Below, piece by piece: positions 28,090 to 35,894 of a stretch of 42,383 bases of DNA. This stretch comes from an uncultured Caryophanales bacterium (GTDB taxonomy: Bacteria; Bacillota_I; Bacilli_A; RF39; UBA660): positions 1 through 42,383 of the forward strand of contig CAMNHK010000012.1 of NCBI GenBank assembly GCA_946539445.1, read 5' to 3'. How positions within the stretch are numbered: position 1 is the stretch's first letter; the number at the start of each line of letters is the position of its first letter. The position numbers and the translations under genes are program-made. Under the pieces are notes generated by a model that worked only from the letters and a program-made list of their open reading frames with translations, was not told where the DNA came from and searched no databases.

Positions 28090-29235
28090 ATGGGTTTATT
28101 TAGTAAAATAAAAAATATGTTTAAAGGAGTAGAAGAGAAAGAGGAGTCTACTATTTTATCCACAGAAACTGTGGAAGAAGAAAAAGAGAATTCAAAAGGA
28201 GATATTATTCCAGAAGAAAATGTCGTAGAAGATATGCCTCAAGATGTGTCTTCTCCTAAAAAAGAAAAGAAAAAACTATTTGTCAAAAAAGATAAAAAGG
28301 AAGAAGAAAAGAAATCCGTTAAAATCTATGAAAAAGGTCTTTCTAAGTCACGTGAGGGTTTTGTTTCCAAATTAGCCAATCTAACGAATAAATATGCTAA
28401 GGTTACGAATGAGTATTTTGATGAATTAGAAGAAATTCTAATAATGGCTGATATTGGTGTTAGCACTGTTATGGATTTTATGGATCGTTTGCGAGATCGT
28501 GTTCGTAAGGAAAATATTACAGATCCATCTTTACTAAAAGAGATTATTGTCGATGAATTATTCATTATTTATGTTAATGATGAAGTATTAAGTAATCGTA
28601 TCCAATATCGTGAAAATGGACCTACTGTTATTTTATTTATTGGGGTAAATGGTGTTGGAAAAACGACGACTATTGCGAAACTTGCCAATAAGATAAAGGA
28701 CGAAGGTAAAAAAGTATTAATGGTTGGGGCTGATACATTCCGTGCTGGGGCGGTTGAACAATTAAGAGAGTGGAGTGTAAAAGTTGGCACTGGTTTTTAT
28801 GGAAAAGAAGAAAGTGATCCTGCCAGTGTTGTATATGATGGAATTGAAATGGCAAAGAAAGAAGATTATGATGTTGTATTAATCGATACTGCCGGAAGAC
28901 TTCAAAATAAAGTCAATTTAATGAAAGAACTTGAAAAAATGAATAAAGTAATTGATGGTTTAGTGGAAGGCGGAGCTAGTGAGACTTTACTGGTGTTAGA
29001 TGCTACTACTGGTCAAAATGGAATTAGTCAGGCAAAGGCTTTTAAAGAGATTACAAATATTACAGGAATTGTTCTTACAAAGTTAGATGGTACTGCCAAA
29101 GGTGGTATTGTATTAGCCATTAAAGAAAGTGTTGGAATTCCCGTTAAATATATTGGACTTGGAGAAACAAAAGATGATTTACAAGTATTTGATATTGAAA
29201 AATATATTTATGGATTATTTAAGGATATGATGTAA
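28090..29235 (+). CDS. ftsY: Signal recognition particle receptor FtsY
   Basis: The 381-residue protein has a charged Lys/Glu-rich A region (about 1-85), a helical N domain and a GTPase G domain. The G domain has GVNGVGKTTTIAKL at about 185-198, DTFRAGAVEQL, DTAGRLQNK, TKLDGTAKGG and GLGETKDDLQ. It docks the SRP-ribosome complex at the membrane. The ftsY-ylxM-ffh order of Bacillus is kept in outline, but a small membrane gene is inserted after it (the stop TAA shares a base with the next ATG). Confidence 0.97.
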   Translation: MGLFSKIKNMFKGVEEKEESTILSTETVEEEKENSKGDIIPEENVVEDMPQDVSSPKKEKKKLFVKKDKKEEEKKSVKIYEKGLSKSREGFVSKLANLTNKYAKVTNEYFDELEEILIMADIGVSTVMDFMDRLRDRVRKENITDPSLLKEIIVDELFIIYVNDEVLSNRIQYRENGPTVILFIGVNGVGKTTTIAKLANKIKDEGKKVLMVGADTFRAGAVEQLREWSVKVGTGFYGKEESDPASVVYDGIEMAKKEDYDVVLIDTAGRLQNKVNLMKELEKMNKVIDGLVEGGASETLLVLDATTGQNGISQAKAFKEITNITGIVLTKLDGTAKGGIVLAIKESVGIPVKYIGLGETKDDLQVFDIEKYIYGLFKDMM

Positions 29236-29504
29236 TGGAAAAGAAACCGATACATGAATACAATTTATTAGGAGTCAATATTCAATTCTTTTTAACACTT
29301 CTTGTAGTTGTCACTGGAATTGTTAGTATATTTTTAGGAAAAAAATATTTTATTGTTTTTGAGTTTTTGGTAGGATTGGATTTATTTGCTATGGCTTACA
29401 ACAATGAGAAAATCTATAAAAGGAAGAATTATACGATTCTTTATATTGTCTCTGGGATAGGGATGATAGTATGTGGAATATTATCAGTGTTAGGAGTGAT
29501 TTAA
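29235..29504 (+). CDS. Small membrane protein between ftsY and ylxM (89 aa)
   Basis: Three hydrophobic stretches at about 14-32, 37-54 and 66-88 with short basic loops (KKYF, NNEKIYKRKNY) indicate a small membrane protein. Its start shares one base with the ftsY stop and its stop touches the ylxM start, so it is translated as part of the SRP operon. This placement makes a link to membrane targeting plausible but not shown. No family is recognised. Confidence 0.75.
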   Translation: MEKKPIHEYNLLGVNIQFFLTLLVVVTGIVSIFLGKKYFIVFEFLVGLDLFAMAYNNEKIYKRKNYTILYIVSGIGMIVCGILSVLGVI

Positions 29505-29798
29505 ATGGAAGATATTGTTTATTATAATGATTTATATGATTTGTATGGATCTTTATTGACCGATAAACAAAAAGAGTATTTTGAGGATTATTATTTTAGT
29601 AATTTAAGCTATTCTGAAATGGCAGAAAACTATGATGTTAGTCGAAATGCTACTTTTAAACAAGTCCATATTGTGGTTGAAAAATTAGAAGAATATGAGG
29701 AAAAACTTGGATTGTATCATAAGAAGAAAAGAATTATGGAACTTGCTACTCAAGTGGAGGATTCTCATTTGAGAGAAGAACTTGAAAATGTATTTTAA
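29505..29798 (+). CDS. ylxM: SRP-associated helix-turn-helix protein YlxM
   Basis: The 97-residue protein matches the YlxM/p13 family: LYDLYGSLLTDKQKEYFEDYY, an HTH-like segment LSYSEMAENYDVSRNATFKQV, and EKLEEYEEKLGLY. In relatives the HTH reads SRQAVYDNI, so the recognition part is diverged here. In streptococci and mollicutes YlxM modulates SRP and FtsY GTPase activity. It begins immediately after the small membrane gene and is followed by a terminator, which separates it from ffh. Confidence 0.92.
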   Translation: MEDIVYYNDLYDLYGSLLTDKQKEYFEDYYFSNLSYSEMAENYDVSRNATFKQVHIVVEKLEEYEEKLGLYHKKKRIMELATQVEDSHLREELENVF

Positions 29799-29814: not shown

Positions 29815-29848
29815 CGAAAAGATCTTTTATAAAAAAGATCTTTTTTTG
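29815..29848 (+). terminator. Terminator after ylxM
   Basis: AAAAGATCTTTT and a following AAAAGATCTTTTTTT pair around a short loop and end in a T-run. Confidence 0.8.
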
Positions 29849-29858
29849 GGTTAAATTG

Positions 29859-29888
29859 TTGAAATTCTTAGATTATCTATTTTATAAT
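29859..29888 (+). promoter_or_regulatory. Promoter of the secreted acidic protein
   Basis: TTGAAA (29859-29864), an 18-base spacer and TATAAT (29883-29888) lie 26 bases before the ATG. Confidence 0.7.
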
Positions 29889-29914
29889 GAAGATACAGGA
29901 GAGGAGGTGAATAT

Positions 29915-31381
29915 ATGAAGAAATACTTAAAATTATTCATTTTAGCATTATTTGTACCTTTTTTCATTACAAATGTTTATGCAGAAGAACCTATGGCTGC
30001 GGAAATATTAAGTAATGTGGAAGATAGTTATGTATTAGATGTTACGGAAGGGTATGCATTAGAGTATGGAGCTAATTGGACTATTAGCCAAGCAATTTAT
30101 AATGATTTATTAGCTAAGGGATATGATTTAAATACGGATGAATACTATTATAGTTTTGGATTAGATCCAGAAAATATTTATCAAGGTAATTTTTATTTAT
30201 CCCAACAATTAGAGGATGGAACTTACTTTGATGAGTTTAAAGAAGTGACTATTTCTTATGCAAATACAGGTAGTCAAACATCTGAAGGAGAGGAAATTGT
30301 TTCTAATTATTTAGATGGAGAAGAAGAAATCGTTTTCGAAGAAGCTGTCCCATTTGAAGAAATTGATACGTTTGATAAAGATGAGTTTTATGATCCTGAT
30401 AAAGTGTTAGAAAAATTAAAAGAACGTTCTGATGATGATAGTCTTGATATTATTTATAATTTCTATGGTGGAGCTATTACATACTTTGATGGTGGTTTCT
30501 ATGGACCAGCTCATTTTATTATTGATGATGTATGGTATGGATCTTGCTTTGTTCATAGTAGTTTCTATACAGAAGTATTTGTTCCATATATTGTAAAAGA
30601 TGCAGAGAGTTATGCATTAGAGTTATTAAAAGCTTATTTAGTTGATCAAGGTGAGGAAGTTGGTAATTTAGTCTTTTCAGATGGACATGTTGTTTCTGAA
30701 GATGGAGAACTAAATTATGGAAAAGTAGTAGTTATCCAAGATGAAGGAAAAGATATTGGAGAAAAAATTATTGCTGACTCTATTTATGAAGATTTAGTAG
30801 CAGAACCTTTAGAAGAGGAAGTCGTTACTACTTTAGAAGAAATTGCTTCTGAAAAAGGATATGAAGAGTCTTATACAACAGCAGATGTTCATAGTGAAGG
30901 TGATTTTCCAGAGGAAGTTCATTTTACTTTTGAAGTTGGAAGTGAATATGAAGGAAAAGAAGTGCTTGTCGTTATTCCAAATGAAAAAGAAAATGAAACA
31001 CAAACTATTGTAGTGGAAGATGGAAAAGCTGTTCTAACGGTAAGTTCTGAGACAAAAGTTGGAGTCTTTTTACCAAAAGTGGAAGAAGAACCAGTAGAGG
31101 AAGATACTACGGAAGAAGTTGTTGAAGTGGTTGAAGCTGTCGCAACAGCAGCACCTGTTGCTATTCCTGCTGGTTATAGTCCTTATCTTTATGGAACGGA
31201 TCCAGTAGTTGTAGCAGAACCTGAAGAGCCAGAAGTCCAAAAAGCCGATGAGCCTAAGAAAGAAAAAGAGACTAAAGTTGAGTCAGAAGAAAAACCTCAA
31301 AATAGAGCTGTTTTAATTCTTATTTTGGTAGCTTTGATTATTGGTGTTATTTACTTTATGTATATGGGAAGTAGAGATTAG
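29915..31381 (+). CDS. Secreted, C-terminally membrane-anchored acidic protein (488 aa)
   Basis: A signal peptide (KKYLKLFILALFVPFF...VYA) is followed by about 430 strongly acidic extracellular residues. A single transmembrane segment lies at about 464-483, with a three- or four-residue tail and no LPXTG sequence. The first ~250 residues look folded and aromatic-rich. A beta domain is suggested at about 328-390 (VHFTFEVGSEYEGKEV, VVEDGKAVLTVSSETKVGVFLP). Then comes a disordered Glu/Pro/Val linker. GGAGAGGAGGTGAA is a very strong ribosome binding site. I recognise no family. Together with the HerA-like gene behind it, it splits the ylxM-ffh pair. Confidence 0.8.
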   Translation: MKKYLKLFILALFVPFFITNVYAEEPMAAEILSNVEDSYVLDVTEGYALEYGANWTISQAIYNDLLAKGYDLNTDEYYYSFGLDPENIYQGNFYLSQQLEDGTYFDEFKEVTISYANTGSQTSEGEEIVSNYLDGEEEIVFEEAVPFEEIDTFDKDEFYDPDKVLEKLKERSDDDSLDIIYNFYGGAITYFDGGFYGPAHFIIDDVWYGSCFVHSSFYTEVFVPYIVKDAESYALELLKAYLVDQGEEVGNLVFSDGHVVSEDGELNYGKVVVIQDEGKDIGEKIIADSIYEDLVAEPLEEEVVTTLEEIASEKGYEESYTTADVHSEGDFPEEVHFTFEVGSEYEGKEVLVVIPNEKENETQTIVVEDGKAVLTVSSETKVGVFLPKVEEEPVEEDTTEEVVEVVEAVATAAPVAIPAGYSPYLYGTDPVVVAEPEEPEVQKADEPKKEKETKVESEEKPQNRAVLILILVALIIGVIYFMYMGSRD

Positions 31382-31398
31382 CTACTTCTCTTTTTTTA
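31366..31398 (+). terminator. Terminator after the secreted acidic protein
   Basis: The stem GAAGTAG/CTACTTC overlaps the stop codon and is followed by CTCTTTTTTT. Confidence 0.75.
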
Positions 31399-31400
31399 TC

Positions 31401-31429
31401 TTGAAAAAAAGTTCTTTTATTAGTATAAT
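31401..31429 (+). promoter_or_regulatory. Promoter of the HerA-like gene
   Basis: TTGAAA (31401-31406), a 17-base spacer and TATAAT (31424-31429) lie 37 bases before the ATG. The same TTGAAA form precedes the neighbouring secreted protein gene. Confidence 0.7.
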
Positions 31430-31466
31430 CTAATTTAGAATAGGGAAGTAGTGAAGAGGGGATAAC

Positions 31467-33602
31467 ATGTTTGATCGAATTACTTATATGAGTGATAATT
31501 CATGTAATATAAAACTAAAAGAAAATGCGGAACTTACTATGAATCTGATGAACTTGCATCTAGTTTTAGAAGATAGTACTAAGAAGATTCTTGCAGAAGT
31601 AGATGATATGGATGGAACAATTGTTAAAGCTAGATTCTTGGGAGAAATTGTTGGAAATCGTCTAATAGGTGGTACGATTCGTAAACCATCTTTGGATGCA
31701 ACTATTCGTGTAATTGATCGTAGTGAAATACCTCTTATTACGGGATCCGATGCGGCTGGTTTTATGAAACTAGGAGTTAGTCCATTTTATGATGATTTTC
31801 CTGTGTACTTAGATGTCAATAATTTCTTTAGTAATCACTTTGCTATTTTTGGTAATACTGGTTCTGGAAAATCTTGTGGTACTACTCGTTTATTTCAAAA
31901 TATGTTTCATGATCAACGATTAAATCCTTACAAAGCGAATGTATTTATTTTTGACTCTTCTGGTGAGTATTATTCTGCTTTCCGTAATTTAAATGAAATT
32001 AATTCTACTTATAACTACCGTTATATTAGTACAAATGAGACGGATGGATTGGGAGAAAAGTTGCGTATCCCAGTTTATCTACTAAATAAAGATGACTTGG
32101 CTTTGTTATTGCAATGTACTTCACATTCTCAATTACCTATTATTGAAAGAATGTTAAAACTAGCTTTGGTATTTAGTCAAAATGATATGGATGCTACGGC
32201 TTATAAGAATCACTTAATTGCTAAAGCTATTATGACAATTTTATATACAAATGAAACGGCTCCTAATAAGAGAAATGAAATTTTCTCTATTGTTGCGAGT
32301 TGTTCTACTCCTCAATTTAATTTGGAGGCTCCTGTTCAAGGAGTTGGATATGTTCGTAAATTCCGTGAATGTTTCTTAATTGATAATTCTGGTAACTTTA
32401 CAGAGAGTGTATTGTTAACTGAATATTTGAATTCCTTCATCAAAGAGGAATATGATGATTATGAACCTCATAAAGGAGTTTATTATGATTTGAATACAAT
32501 GGAGAGAGCTCTTAACTTTACTTTAATAAGTGAAGGTTGGTTAAGAAATGATCAAACTTACGGAGACTCTGTTACTCTTCGTGTTCGTTTACATGCATTA
32601 CTTGTTGGAGAAAATGCTAAATATTTTGATGTCAAAGATTATGTTTCTTTGGAATCTTATTTGTCCTCTTTATTAATAAATAATGGGCAAAAATATCAAA
32701 TTGTTAATATCAACTTAAACGATGTGGATGATGATTTTGCTAAGGTTATTACTAAAATCTTTTCTCGTTTAATCTTTGATTTTGCTAAGGGACTAAAGTA
32801 TCGTGCTAGTATTCCGTTTCATATCGTTTTGGAAGAGGCACACCGTTATATTCAAAGTGACCAAGACCGTTTCTTATTCGGATATAATATATTTGAACGT
32901 ATTGCTAAAGAGGGTCGTAAATATGGGGTTATAATGGGACTAATTTCTCAAAGACCGGTTGAAATTAGTGATACTGTAATTTCTCAATGTACTAATTTCT
33001 TAATTTTTAAAATAAACCATCCGATTGATGTAGAATATATTCGTAAGATGGTACCAAATATTACCGATGAAATTGTTGAAAAGCAAAAATCCTTACAATC
33101 TGGTACTTGTTTAGGATTTGGATTGGGATTTAAAATACCATTGATTATTAAAATGGAAATGCCAAATCCAGCTCCTATGTCTGGAAACTGTGATGTTGTT
33201 CGTATTTGGTGTGGAAATAATTCTGCCAACTCAGCTCCAGCTGCTGCGCCAGAACCTGCTCCTACACCAGTTGCTATGCCAACTACCCCGGTAGTGGCTA
33301 CGCCTCCTGTTTCTTCTCAACCAGTTATTACACAGGTTCCTAGTGTTCCAGCTGCTGTACCAACTCCTCCTGTTATGATGTCTAGTGCACCTGCTCAACC
33401 AGTTATGCCTTCTAGTGAGGTAATTCAGATTCCAAGTTTTGTTAATAATCAAGTTCAGAATCAAGAAGCAAAGTTTGATGACTCTTTTGTGGTAACAAAT
33501 CCTGTTCCTCAAACTACTGCAACACCAGCACCTGCTGGACCTATCTTGGAAATTGATGACGATGATGATGATGCGTCAGATTTTGGACCAGACTTTAGTT
33601 AA
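31467..33602 (+). CDS. HerA-like FtsK/HerA-fold ATPase with long disordered tail
   Basis: This 711-residue protein belongs to the HerA/DUF87 branch of hexameric DNA-pumping ATPases. An N-terminal beta domain (about 20-95) resembles the HAS barrel. It is followed by Walker A GNTGSGKS at 129-136, Walker B FIFDSSGEY at 160-168, a second acidic motif VLEEAHRY at 454-461, and the SQRP motif at 494-497. Residues 590-690 are a Pro/Ala/Val-rich linker, and the end is a run of Asp with DFGPDF. HerA normally works with the nuclease NurA in end resection or with Sir2/DUF4297 in defence; none of these is adjacent here. GAGGGGATAAC precedes the ATG. The tail could bind a partner protein, which is inference. 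Confidence 0.88.
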   Translation: MFDRITYMSDNSCNIKLKENAELTMNLMNLHLVLEDSTKKILAEVDDMDGTIVKARFLGEIVGNRLIGGTIRKPSLDATIRVIDRSEIPLITGSDAAGFMKLGVSPFYDDFPVYLDVNNFFSNHFAIFGNTGSGKSCGTTRLFQNMFHDQRLNPYKANVFIFDSSGEYYSAFRNLNEINSTYNYRYISTNETDGLGEKLRIPVYLLNKDDLALLLQCTSHSQLPIIERMLKLALVFSQNDMDATAYKNHLIAKAIMTILYTNETAPNKRNEIFSIVASCSTPQFNLEAPVQGVGYVRKFRECFLIDNSGNFTESVLLTEYLNSFIKEEYDDYEPHKGVYYDLNTMERALNFTLISEGWLRNDQTYGDSVTLRVRLHALLVGENAKYFDVKDYVSLESYLSSLLINNGQKYQIVNINLNDVDDDFAKVITKIFSRLIFDFAKGLKYRASIPFHIVLEEAHRYIQSDQDRFLFGYNIFERIAKEGRKYGVIMGLISQRPVEISDTVISQCTNFLIFKINHPIDVEYIRKMVPNITDEIVEKQKSLQSGTCLGFGLGFKIPLIIKMEMPNPAPMSGNCDVVRIWCGNNSANSAPAAAPEPAPTPVAMPTTPVVATPPVSSQPVITQVPSVPAAVPTPPVMMSSAPAQPVMPSSEVIQIPSFVNNQVQNQEAKFDDSFVVTNPVPQTTATPAPAGPILEIDDDDDDASDFGPDFS

Positions 33603-33627
33603 AATAGTGGATTTCCACTATTTTTCT
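33601..33627 (+). terminator. Terminator after the HerA-like gene
   Basis: The 11-bp stem AAAATAGTGGA/TCCACTATTTT with a two-base loop starts at the stop codon and ends in T's. Confidence 0.85.
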
Positions 33628-33675: not shown

Positions 33676-34983
33676 ATGTTTGAAAGCTTAGGAGATCGAC
33701 TACAAAATGCCATTCATAAAATAAAGGGATATGGTAAGATAACAGAAGATAATATTTCTGATATGATGCGTGAAATTCGTCTTGCTTTGTTGGAAGCCGA
33801 TGTTAACTATTCTGTTGTGAAAGAGTTTACCAATGCGGTTAAAGAAAAAGCGTTAGGAGAAGAAGTTGCTTCTAGTATTAATCCAGGTGACTTATTTGTT
33901 AAAATTGTAAAAGATGAATTAACAGAATTGTTAGGTGGAGAAAGTGAGCCTTTAAATGTGAAAGGTAATCCGGCTATTTTGATGCTTGTTGGATTACAAG
34001 GTTCAGGAAAAACGACCACCATTGCAAAATTAGGAAATTATTTAAGAAAAAAGCATGCAAAAAAACCTTTATTAGTTGCTTGTGATGTTTATCGTCCTGC
34101 TGCTATTGATCAGTTGGTTCAACTTGGAAAGCAATTAAATATTGAGGTTTATCAAGAGGGAAAGAAAGACCCAGTAGAGATTTCTCAAAATGCTTTAGAG
34201 TATGCACGAGAAAATGGATACGACTATGTATTGATTGATACGGCTGGTCGTTTGCATATTGATGAAGATTTGATGGATGAGTTAGATCGTATCCAAAAAA
34301 CAATTGCTCCTCAAGAAACTTTATTGGTTATTGATTCTATGATGGGGCAAGATGCTATTAATGTTATTACTGGTTTTAATGATAAATTACCTCTAACGGG
34401 AGTTATTCTTACTAAATTAGATGGAGATACTCGAGGAGGAGTCGCTTTATCGGTTCGTCATTTAACTCATGTTCCTATCAAGTTTATTGGAGTTTCTGAA
34501 AAGCTAGATGGATTGGATTCCTTCGATCCAGAACGAATGGCTGGACGTATTCTTGGAATGGGAGATATTATTTCTCTTGTTGAAAAAGCAACAGAATCTA
34601 TTGATGAGGCAGAAGCTGAAAAAACAGCGAAACGCATGCAACAAGGAAAATTTGATTTAGAAGATTTTTTATCTACCATGAAACAAATGAAAAAATTAGG
34701 ACCTTTAGAGAATTTGATTAAAATGATACCTGGTGCTAAGAAAATGGGATTAACGGATATTAAGATTGATCCAAAACAAATGGCTCATATCGAAGCAATT
34801 GTATTGTCTATGACACCAAAAGAAAGAAAGAATCCAGATATTATTAAAGCAAGTCGTAAAACTAGAATTGCCAAAGGATCTGGTACTTCGGTTCAAGAAG
34901 TTAATCGTTTATTGCAGCAATTTGATCAAATGAAAAAAATGATGAAACAAGTTACAAACGGTAATATGAAATTACCATTTTAA
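33676..34983 (+). CDS. ffh: Signal recognition particle protein Ffh
   Basis: The 435-residue protein has an N domain, a G domain with GLQGSGKTTTIAKL at 106-119, DVYRPAAIDQL, DTAGRLHIDE, TKLDGDTRGGVAL and GVSEKLDGLD, and a short methionine-containing M domain. The M domain has MTPKERKNPDIIKASRKTRIAKGSG for 4.5S RNA binding. With the 4.5S RNA it targets membrane and secreted proteins to FtsY. rpsP, the usual next gene in Bacillus, is replaced here by an unknown. Confidence 0.97.
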   Translation: MFESLGDRLQNAIHKIKGYGKITEDNISDMMREIRLALLEADVNYSVVKEFTNAVKEKALGEEVASSINPGDLFVKIVKDELTELLGGESEPLNVKGNPAILMLVGLQGSGKTTTIAKLGNYLRKKHAKKPLLVACDVYRPAAIDQLVQLGKQLNIEVYQEGKKDPVEISQNALEYARENGYDYVLIDTAGRLHIDEDLMDELDRIQKTIAPQETLLVIDSMMGQDAINVITGFNDKLPLTGVILTKLDGDTRGGVALSVRHLTHVPIKFIGVSEKLDGLDSFDPERMAGRILGMGDIISLVEKATESIDEAEAEKTAKRMQQGKFDLEDFLSTMKQMKKLGPLENLIKMIPGAKKMGLTDIKIDPKQMAHIEAIVLSMTPKERKNPDIIKASRKTRIAKGSGTSVQEVNRLLQQFDQMKKMMKQVTNGNMKLPF

Positions 34984-35573: not shown

Positions 35574-35894
35574 ATGTATAATACTGATTTTTTTCAAAAT
35601 GTGAATATGAATTCTTCCATTGATGGAAATCAAAATTATGTGGATCAAGATATGGATGTTGATGTAAATGTTATGATGAATCAAAACCCTATGATGGAAA
35701 CCCCTACTAGTTGTGGGGTACAAGAAAGAGTAATTAATCGTACTTTTGTCCACGAAGTTCCTCATATTTGTCCTATTCATACTCGTATTATCAATCATCA
35801 TGTTTATAAGCATACTTATCGCCCTGCTTATACTTGTTCTGAAGAAAATGTTTGTAGTAATGTTCAATGTGGCTCTTGTAATCAATTCCGTTAA
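35574..35894 (+). CDS. cotD: CotD-like inner spore coat protein
   Basis: This 106-residue protein has an Asn/Asp/Met-rich first half (SIDGNQNYVDQDMDVDVN). The second half resembles the spore coat protein D family: a VHEVPHICPIHTRIINHHVY segment (family: V-x-H-I-H-P-x-HT-x-x-VNHH), followed by a Cys-rich end with five Cys (CSEENVCSNVQCGSC). His and Cys enrichment is usual for coat proteins that cross-link. The strong GGAGG, the CATAnnnTA element and the absence of any co-transcribed gene support a sporulation-specific single-gene unit. The symbol is by resemblance; the exact orthology to Bacillus cotD is not proven. Confidence 0.8.
   Translation: MYNTDFFQNVNMNSSIDGNQNYVDQDMDVDVNVMMNQNPMMETPTSCGVQERVINRTFVHEVPHICPIHTRIINHHVYKHTYRPAYTCSEENVCSNVQCGSCNQFR

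Follow-up and report, generated by a model that had tools for sequence, protein, structure and literature searches.

Two NurA-less HerA paralogues as possible housekeeping DNA motors in an order of uncultured Bacilli

Background

In this work we examine a stretch of 42,383 nucleotides (hereafter, the window), contig CAMNHK010000012.1 of an uncultured Caryophanales bacterium (assembly GCA_946539445.1), in which the genes ylxM and ffh are separated by two open reading frames, one for an acidic surface-anchored protein and one for a HerA-like ATPase, here called HerA-A. The question raised by this locus is whether the two genes form one inserted system, as proposed in a first-pass annotation, which suggested a role in DNA translocation or defence with an unknown partner, or whether they have separate histories. 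Known bacterial HerAs mostly serve repair, paired with NurA, or phage defence, paired with SIR2 or DUF4297 effectors.

Comparison with related genomes separates the two genes. The acidic protein gene was inserted recently, in one lineage, and does not belong to the HerA unit; HerA-A belongs to a family of the whole order, together with a paralogue, HerA-B. The explanation that we prefer, believing in it about as much as we doubt it, is that HerA-A and HerA-B are vertically inherited, NurA-less housekeeping motors, translocating double-stranded DNA (dsDNA) for chromosome maintenance, perhaps in connection with cell division.

Distribution and descent of the HerA paralogues

The source genome, metagenome-assembled and 77% complete, belongs to an order, probably RF39 of GTDB, of uncultured and mostly gut-derived Bacilli, with more than 100 genera and genomes mostly of 0.8-1.6 Mb. 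HerA family members were found in all 36 genomes of its genus, 33 of which carry both paralogues, about 40% identical to each other; in a profile search the family extended to 277 of 288 genomes and 101 of 102 genera of the order, mostly in two copies. Copy loss in individual genomes may reflect assembly gaps. Outside the order, any HerA match was obtained for 14 of 341 genomes of the class (best E about 1e-39), and those inspected are SIR2-like or DUF4297-type HerA loci: in L285 Pfam confirmed a SIR2_2 partner; the DUF4297-type partners, lacking a Pfam match, were named from their N-terminal pattern. The tree places the HerA-A and HerA-B proteins of the order together in a single clade, separated from the SIR2-/DUF4297-type HerAs by a branch of 1.24 with support 100; the HerA-A clade has a support of 100 as well.

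Within the order, one genome (G217, L289:3980-7020) carries a DUF4297-type gene and HerA pair alongside its core HerAs, showing that HerAs of the defence type are distinct from these and occur sporadically. Both paralogues are missing from all four sampled genomes of genus g42 (G081, G145, G199, G244), a natural loss useful for finding partners, and two genomes of one genus have tandem duplicate HerA-A genes between ylxM and ffh (L127 and L139, from G198 and G128). The idea of an obligate heteromer is weakened by the single-copy genomes examined, some of which keep HerA-A alone and others HerA-B alone.

Gene neighbourhoods and candidate partners

Gene order was counted at 142 dereplicated HerA-A loci and 50 HerA-B loci, in which genera are unevenly mixed. 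The series ftsY-(small transmembrane protein)-ylxM-herA-A-ffh recurs across genera: ylxM is directly upstream of HerA-A in 89 of the 142 loci, and within six genes in 98, ffh is downstream in 71, and in the source genus HerA-A normally lies directly between the two. This arrangement is ancestral and order-wide. The median gap between ylxM and herA-A, 20 bp, makes co-transcription likely in many genera; in the source species separate promoters intervene. Correlation of pairwise distances (HerA-A/FtsY 0.49, HerA-A/YlxM 0.54, HerA-A/Ffh 0.65, FtsY/YlxM 0.52) shows that HerA-A tracks FtsY and YlxM as closely as these track each other, and hence that it descends with its neighbours.

In 26 of the 50 loci sepF directly follows HerA-B, and divIVA and ileS come after it; within six genes on the 3' side of HerA-B SepF is found in 30 loci and DivIVA in 29, and its 5' side often features asnS and a PP2C phosphatase gene. 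The genus also conserves an EssC-type (type VII secretion) ATPase of 1522 amino acids with FtsK domains (L068:6915-11483, G000:C11; L071); sporadically, in a few species, an EssC gene adjoins that of HerA-B (L043, L069, L070).

As already noticed in the first-pass annotation, the scanned neighbourhood of HerA-A contains no gene for NurA, SIR2 or another nuclease. A normal NurA partner elsewhere, which would have spoken against that annotation, was found neither in the source genome nor in any of 117 genomes of the order, in a search whose positive controls matched. No nuclease recurs beside HerA-A or HerA-B, and no SIR2- or DUF4297-type effector is adjacent at the HerA-A and HerA-B loci of the order that were examined, unlinked effectors not having been searched genome-wide.

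Two replacement hypotheses were also considered. A separate FtsK domain protein is found in all of the 59 genomes searched (in the source genome, an open frame of about 760 amino acids), which leads us to reject the HerA pair as a substitute for FtsK; HerA-A has no FtsK_SpoIIIE match, and HerA-B remains below threshold (23.1 bits, cut-off 24). Substitution for AddA or AddAB is weakened by AddA-like proteins of about 1035 amino acids, found in most of the 117 order genomes, source included, though in only 4 of the 117 do they pass the curated cut-off.

Fold, catalytic residues and tail of HerA-A

HerA-A matches Pfam PF01935 (DUF87/HerA) with 77.1 bits (cut-off 23.2; E=2.7e-21), close to the 74.3 bits of HerA-B, and the PADLOC HerA model with 360 bits. 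In its predicted structure, a beta barrel at the N-terminus is followed by a RecA-like core that contains a helical insertion; from residue 573 on, the tail is disordered. Residues 1-574 of the model align to solved HerAs with Z up to 37.0, the best match being 8xau_A (Z 37.0, root-mean-square deviation 4.2 over 456 residues). The first non-HerA structures, TdpA, DndH and VirB4, follow at Z of about 24 and below, then TrwB, with FtsK lower. The features recognized in the gene, all on the + strand, are listed below; pLDDT is the predicted local distance difference test score.

31467-33602, +: HerA-A, 711 amino acids (Pfam PF01935, PADLOC HerA, structural alignment of the model)
31467-31736, +: N-terminal HAS-type beta barrel, about residues 1-90 (model strands; aligned from residue 1 to HerA structures)
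31851-31874, +: Walker A GNTGSGKS, residues 129-136 (K135 invariant in 33 HerA-A/B)
32832-32837, +: Walker B acidic pair E456-E457 (invariant in 33 HerA-A/B)
32916-32921, +: trans arginine-finger pair R484-K485, in EGRKYG (invariant; aligns to R455/K456 of DUF4297-HerA)
33192-33542, +: linker rich in Pro and Ala, disordered, roughly residues 576-692 (modelled with pLDDT 32-39)
33471-33491, +: KFDDSFV motif within the linker (K[FI]D.SF[IV] in 12/28 genus tails)
33543-33599, +: Asp-rich C-terminus ILEIDDDDDDASDFGPDFS (acid end in 30/66 long-tailed HerA-A)

The catalytic acid E167 is likewise invariant in the 33 HerA-A/B sequences, and the R455/K456 pair has been described as the trans finger of DUF4297-HerA (PMC11291478). 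Judged on the model, HerA-A is a true and complete HerA with all catalytic residues, and would be expected to form a hexamer and translocate dsDNA.

The Pro/Ala linker and Asp-rich end of the first-pass annotation are indeed present, residues 576-690 containing 23 Pro and 16 Ala. HerA-A tails often reach 60-300 residues past the core and carry short motifs, to be taken as leads because the shuffles used for comparison ignore sequence relatedness: among 28 tails of the genus, 12 contain K[FI]D.SF[IV] (0.00 on average after shuffling) and 15 a hydrophobic plus D/E run (0.40 after shuffling), and in other genera 22 of 38 HerA-A tails have an IPE[IL]x-type motif (1.27 after shuffling). The acid end is found in no HerA-B tail. 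Common in these tails, which are otherwise rich in Gln and Pro, is a motif of the form NRF[IFL] or GRFI (L034, L081, L115, L117, L131).

The acidic protein gene and the layout of the locus

The acidic protein, 488 amino acids long, has a signal peptide and a C-terminal transmembrane helix; its mature part contains 107 Asp+Glu and 24 Lys+Arg, with an isoelectric point of 4.05. No family match was found in Pfam, NCBIfam or PHROG, and a model built from just two sequences (mean pLDDT 48) was too poor for a fold search. That the protein and the ATPase belong to one inserted system was to be judged, as set beforehand, by their co-occurrence. In the same 59 genomes, searched with both proteins, HerA is found in 36 of 36 members of the genus and the acidic gene in 2, the source genome and one sister, G022, where it also adjoins HerA-A (L072). 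Between these sister species the acidic proteins are 43-45% identical, as opposed to 94% for HerA-A (first 358 residues), 91% for FtsY and 81% for YlxM. Because of this lack of co-occurrence and of the unequal divergence, the two genes are not one unit, the supposed relation between the ATPase and its neighbour does not hold, and the acidic protein is rejected as a HerA partner. Its sequence looks like that of a fast-evolving surface protein which entered intergenic space. The earlier view of an insertion into the ylxM-ffh pair is thus correct for the acidic gene but not for HerA-A, whose position there is ancestral.

Both reading frames were confirmed, and the flanking genes were identified by family models. 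The remaining elements of the locus are as follows.

28090-29235: ftsY
29235-29504: small membrane protein gene between ftsY and ylxM
29505-29798, +: ylxM (NCBIfam YlxM equivalog above cut-off; synteny; 5' neighbour of HerA-A order-wide)
about 29817-29844, +: AT-rich hairpin with T-run 3' of ylxM, likely terminator (read by eye)
29859-29888, +: promoter-like TTGAAA-18-TATAAT of the acidic protein gene (11/12 matches)
29915-31381, +: acidic secreted protein gene, 488 amino acids, product C-terminally membrane-anchored
31366-31390, +: terminator-like hairpin of the acidic protein gene (consensus scan)
31401-31429, +: promoter-like TTGAAA-17-TATAAT of HerA-A (11/12 matches)
33601-33624, +: terminator-like hairpin of HerA-A (consensus scan)
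33676-34983, +: ffh (TIGR00959 above cut-off; synteny; 3' neighbour of HerA-A order-wide)

The shared TTGAAA promoter form and the separate terminators reported earlier were found where claimed: the two TTGAAA/TATAAT pairs are the best promoter matches of the region, and the terminator-like hairpins carry T-runs, the one after ylxM being too AT-rich for the consensus scan. Signal sites are no more numerous than in shuffled sequences (17 observed vs 18.4 shuffled; 2 vs 1.5), so that, as sequence signals, they persuade by strength and position, not by number.

Downstream of ffh, at 35574-35894, lies a gene whose small product is rich in Met, Asn and Asp and ends in a conserved His/Tyr/Cys C-terminus (CPIHTRIINHHVYKHTYRP...); about 20 loci across the order carry such a gene 3' of ffh. 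A Pfam search gave no match; our guess is that it resembles a spore-coat type protein.

Discussion

According to the explanation that we prefer, each HerA paralogue would form a hexameric ring, hydrolyze ATP and pump dsDNA, both working alongside FtsK as housekeeping motors of chromosome maintenance. HerA-B might act at or near the division site, a suggestion based on the adjacency of its gene to sepF-divIVA, and HerA-A would handle other DNA; the disordered tails may recruit the HerAs, or their partners, through short motifs. As for the first-pass proposal of a translocation or defence system, a DNA-translocation motor with no adjacent nuclease is retained, while a defence island is unlikely, because HerA-A is vertical, near-universal and distinct from the sporadic SIR2-/DUF4297-type loci of other Bacilli.

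Several observations weigh against a housekeeping, division-linked role. Some genera keep one paralogue and g42 has lost both, so that neither HerA is strictly essential. The median distance between HerA-B and sepF is 97 bp, and co-transcription may therefore fail. In other lineages HerA-A lies beside asnS and genes reading as gatCAB, so the neighbours may simply mark a stable core region. As to the tails, the relatedness ignored by the shuffles applies here too, and the acidic end is limited to the source genus, rather than family-wide.

The order's HerAs resemble various known systems, none of them completely. With SIR2-HerA and DUF4297-HerA (Nezha-type), HerA-A shares the HAS barrel, the RecA core, the helical insertion, the Walker A and B motifs and the R-K finger; the order's proteins differ in being near-universal and vertical, in two paralogues, in a separate clade and with long, motif-bearing disordered tails, and lack the adjacent effector that defence HerAs sit beside. 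The HerA-NurA systems of end resection (archaea, Deinococcus, Thermococcus) share fold and motor residues with HerA-A (Sulfolobus 4d2i Z 29.4, Thermococcus 9x1m Z 30.2, Deinococcus 7wrx Z 24.5), but the order has no NurA in 117 genomes, no nuclease neighbour and other gene contexts. FtsK/SpoIIIE, a sister motor in the FtsK-HerA superfamily, shares the core fold (6t8o Z 16.5); HerA-A has a HAS barrel and a helical bundle instead of the membrane-anchored FtsK layout. A lead is offered by the acidic tip of SSB, since HerA-A likewise combines a disordered linker with an acidic tip (the source genome SSB ends SSIEISDDELPF, HerA-A of G016 ends LEISDDDDEDDLGFDDE), although HerA-A tips vary, rarely end in F and are confined to the source genus. 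In Thermus, the HerA homologue HepA was found in every strain then sequenced, and was connected with competence, DNA donation and tolerance to UV and heat (PMC5448004). As a widespread bacterial HerA tied to general physiology, HepA would resemble the order's HerAs; the order, of a different phylum, has in addition two paralogues, synteny with signal recognition particle (SRP) and division genes, and motif tails.

The main rival, possible though we hold it to be less probable, is recombinational repair, HerA-A and HerA-B driving end resection with a nuclease other than NurA, such as RecJ or an unrecognised one, encoded elsewhere. End resection is the best-known HerA role, the HerA-A motor is catalytically complete, the absence of NurA leaves room for another partner, and RecJ was reported to interact with HerA in Deinococcus (PMC4663267). 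Yet the AddA-like proteins suggest that a resection helicase probably exists already, and the lack of a recurring nuclease neighbour tells in the same direction. Defence and secretion are less likely than repair. A domesticated anti-phage ATPase, derived from a SIR2- or DUF4297-HerA pair whose effector was lost or became unlinked, would account for the closest solved relatives being defence HerAs and for the strong PADLOC matches; we regard it as unlikely in view of the near-universal vertical inheritance in housekeeping contexts, of the long branch to the defence HerAs, and of the fact that the latter adjoin their effectors, as SIR2_2 in L285, and the order's HerAs do not.

Even less credit is given to an export motor, a VirB4- or coupling-protein-like ATPase for transfer or type VII-like secretion. 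DndH, VirB4 and TrwB do align to the HerA-A core (Z about 18-23), and EssC lies beside HerA-B in a few species, but HerA-A has no apparent membrane segment, its HAS barrel and whole-length fit match HerA and not VirB4, and the EssC neighbours are sporadic. The least probable reading by far, to which we give hardly any weight, is a joint function of the acidic surface protein and HerA: their genes are adjacent, in G022 as well, on the same strand and with a similar promoter form, but 34 of the 36 HerA-bearing genus genomes lack the acidic gene, the two proteins diverge very differently, and each gene has its own promoter and terminator signals.

Conclusion

Searches of open-licence papers for HerA together with SepF, or with core genes of Bacilli, turned up no mention of this gene pair, nor did the text of a paper on RF39 sporulation; a comparative paper on RF39 (PMC10868615) does not refer to HerA, FtsK, SepF or DivIVA. 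For annotation, a warning follows, as PADLOC-type HerA models alone would flag these core genes as defence components. Two near-universal, inherited HerAs in about 100 genera, with no partner of the known kinds found, point to an as yet undescribed role of a DNA pump in housekeeping, in a widespread uncultured lineage. A more specific version, which we consider doubtful, is that two NurA-less HerAs became fixed in the order as core machines of the chromosome: HerA-A, within the SRP gene cluster, would have a tail with interaction motifs, and HerA-B, placed with SepF/DivIVA, would act at the division septum as a second DNA pump beside FtsK. A role of HerA in chromosome segregation was reportedly proposed by Iyer et al. 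in 2004, in their work on the FtsK-HerA superfamily; if true, a septal HerA-B would be the bacterial realisation of this proposal, in which HerA has a part in segregation comparable to that of FtsK.

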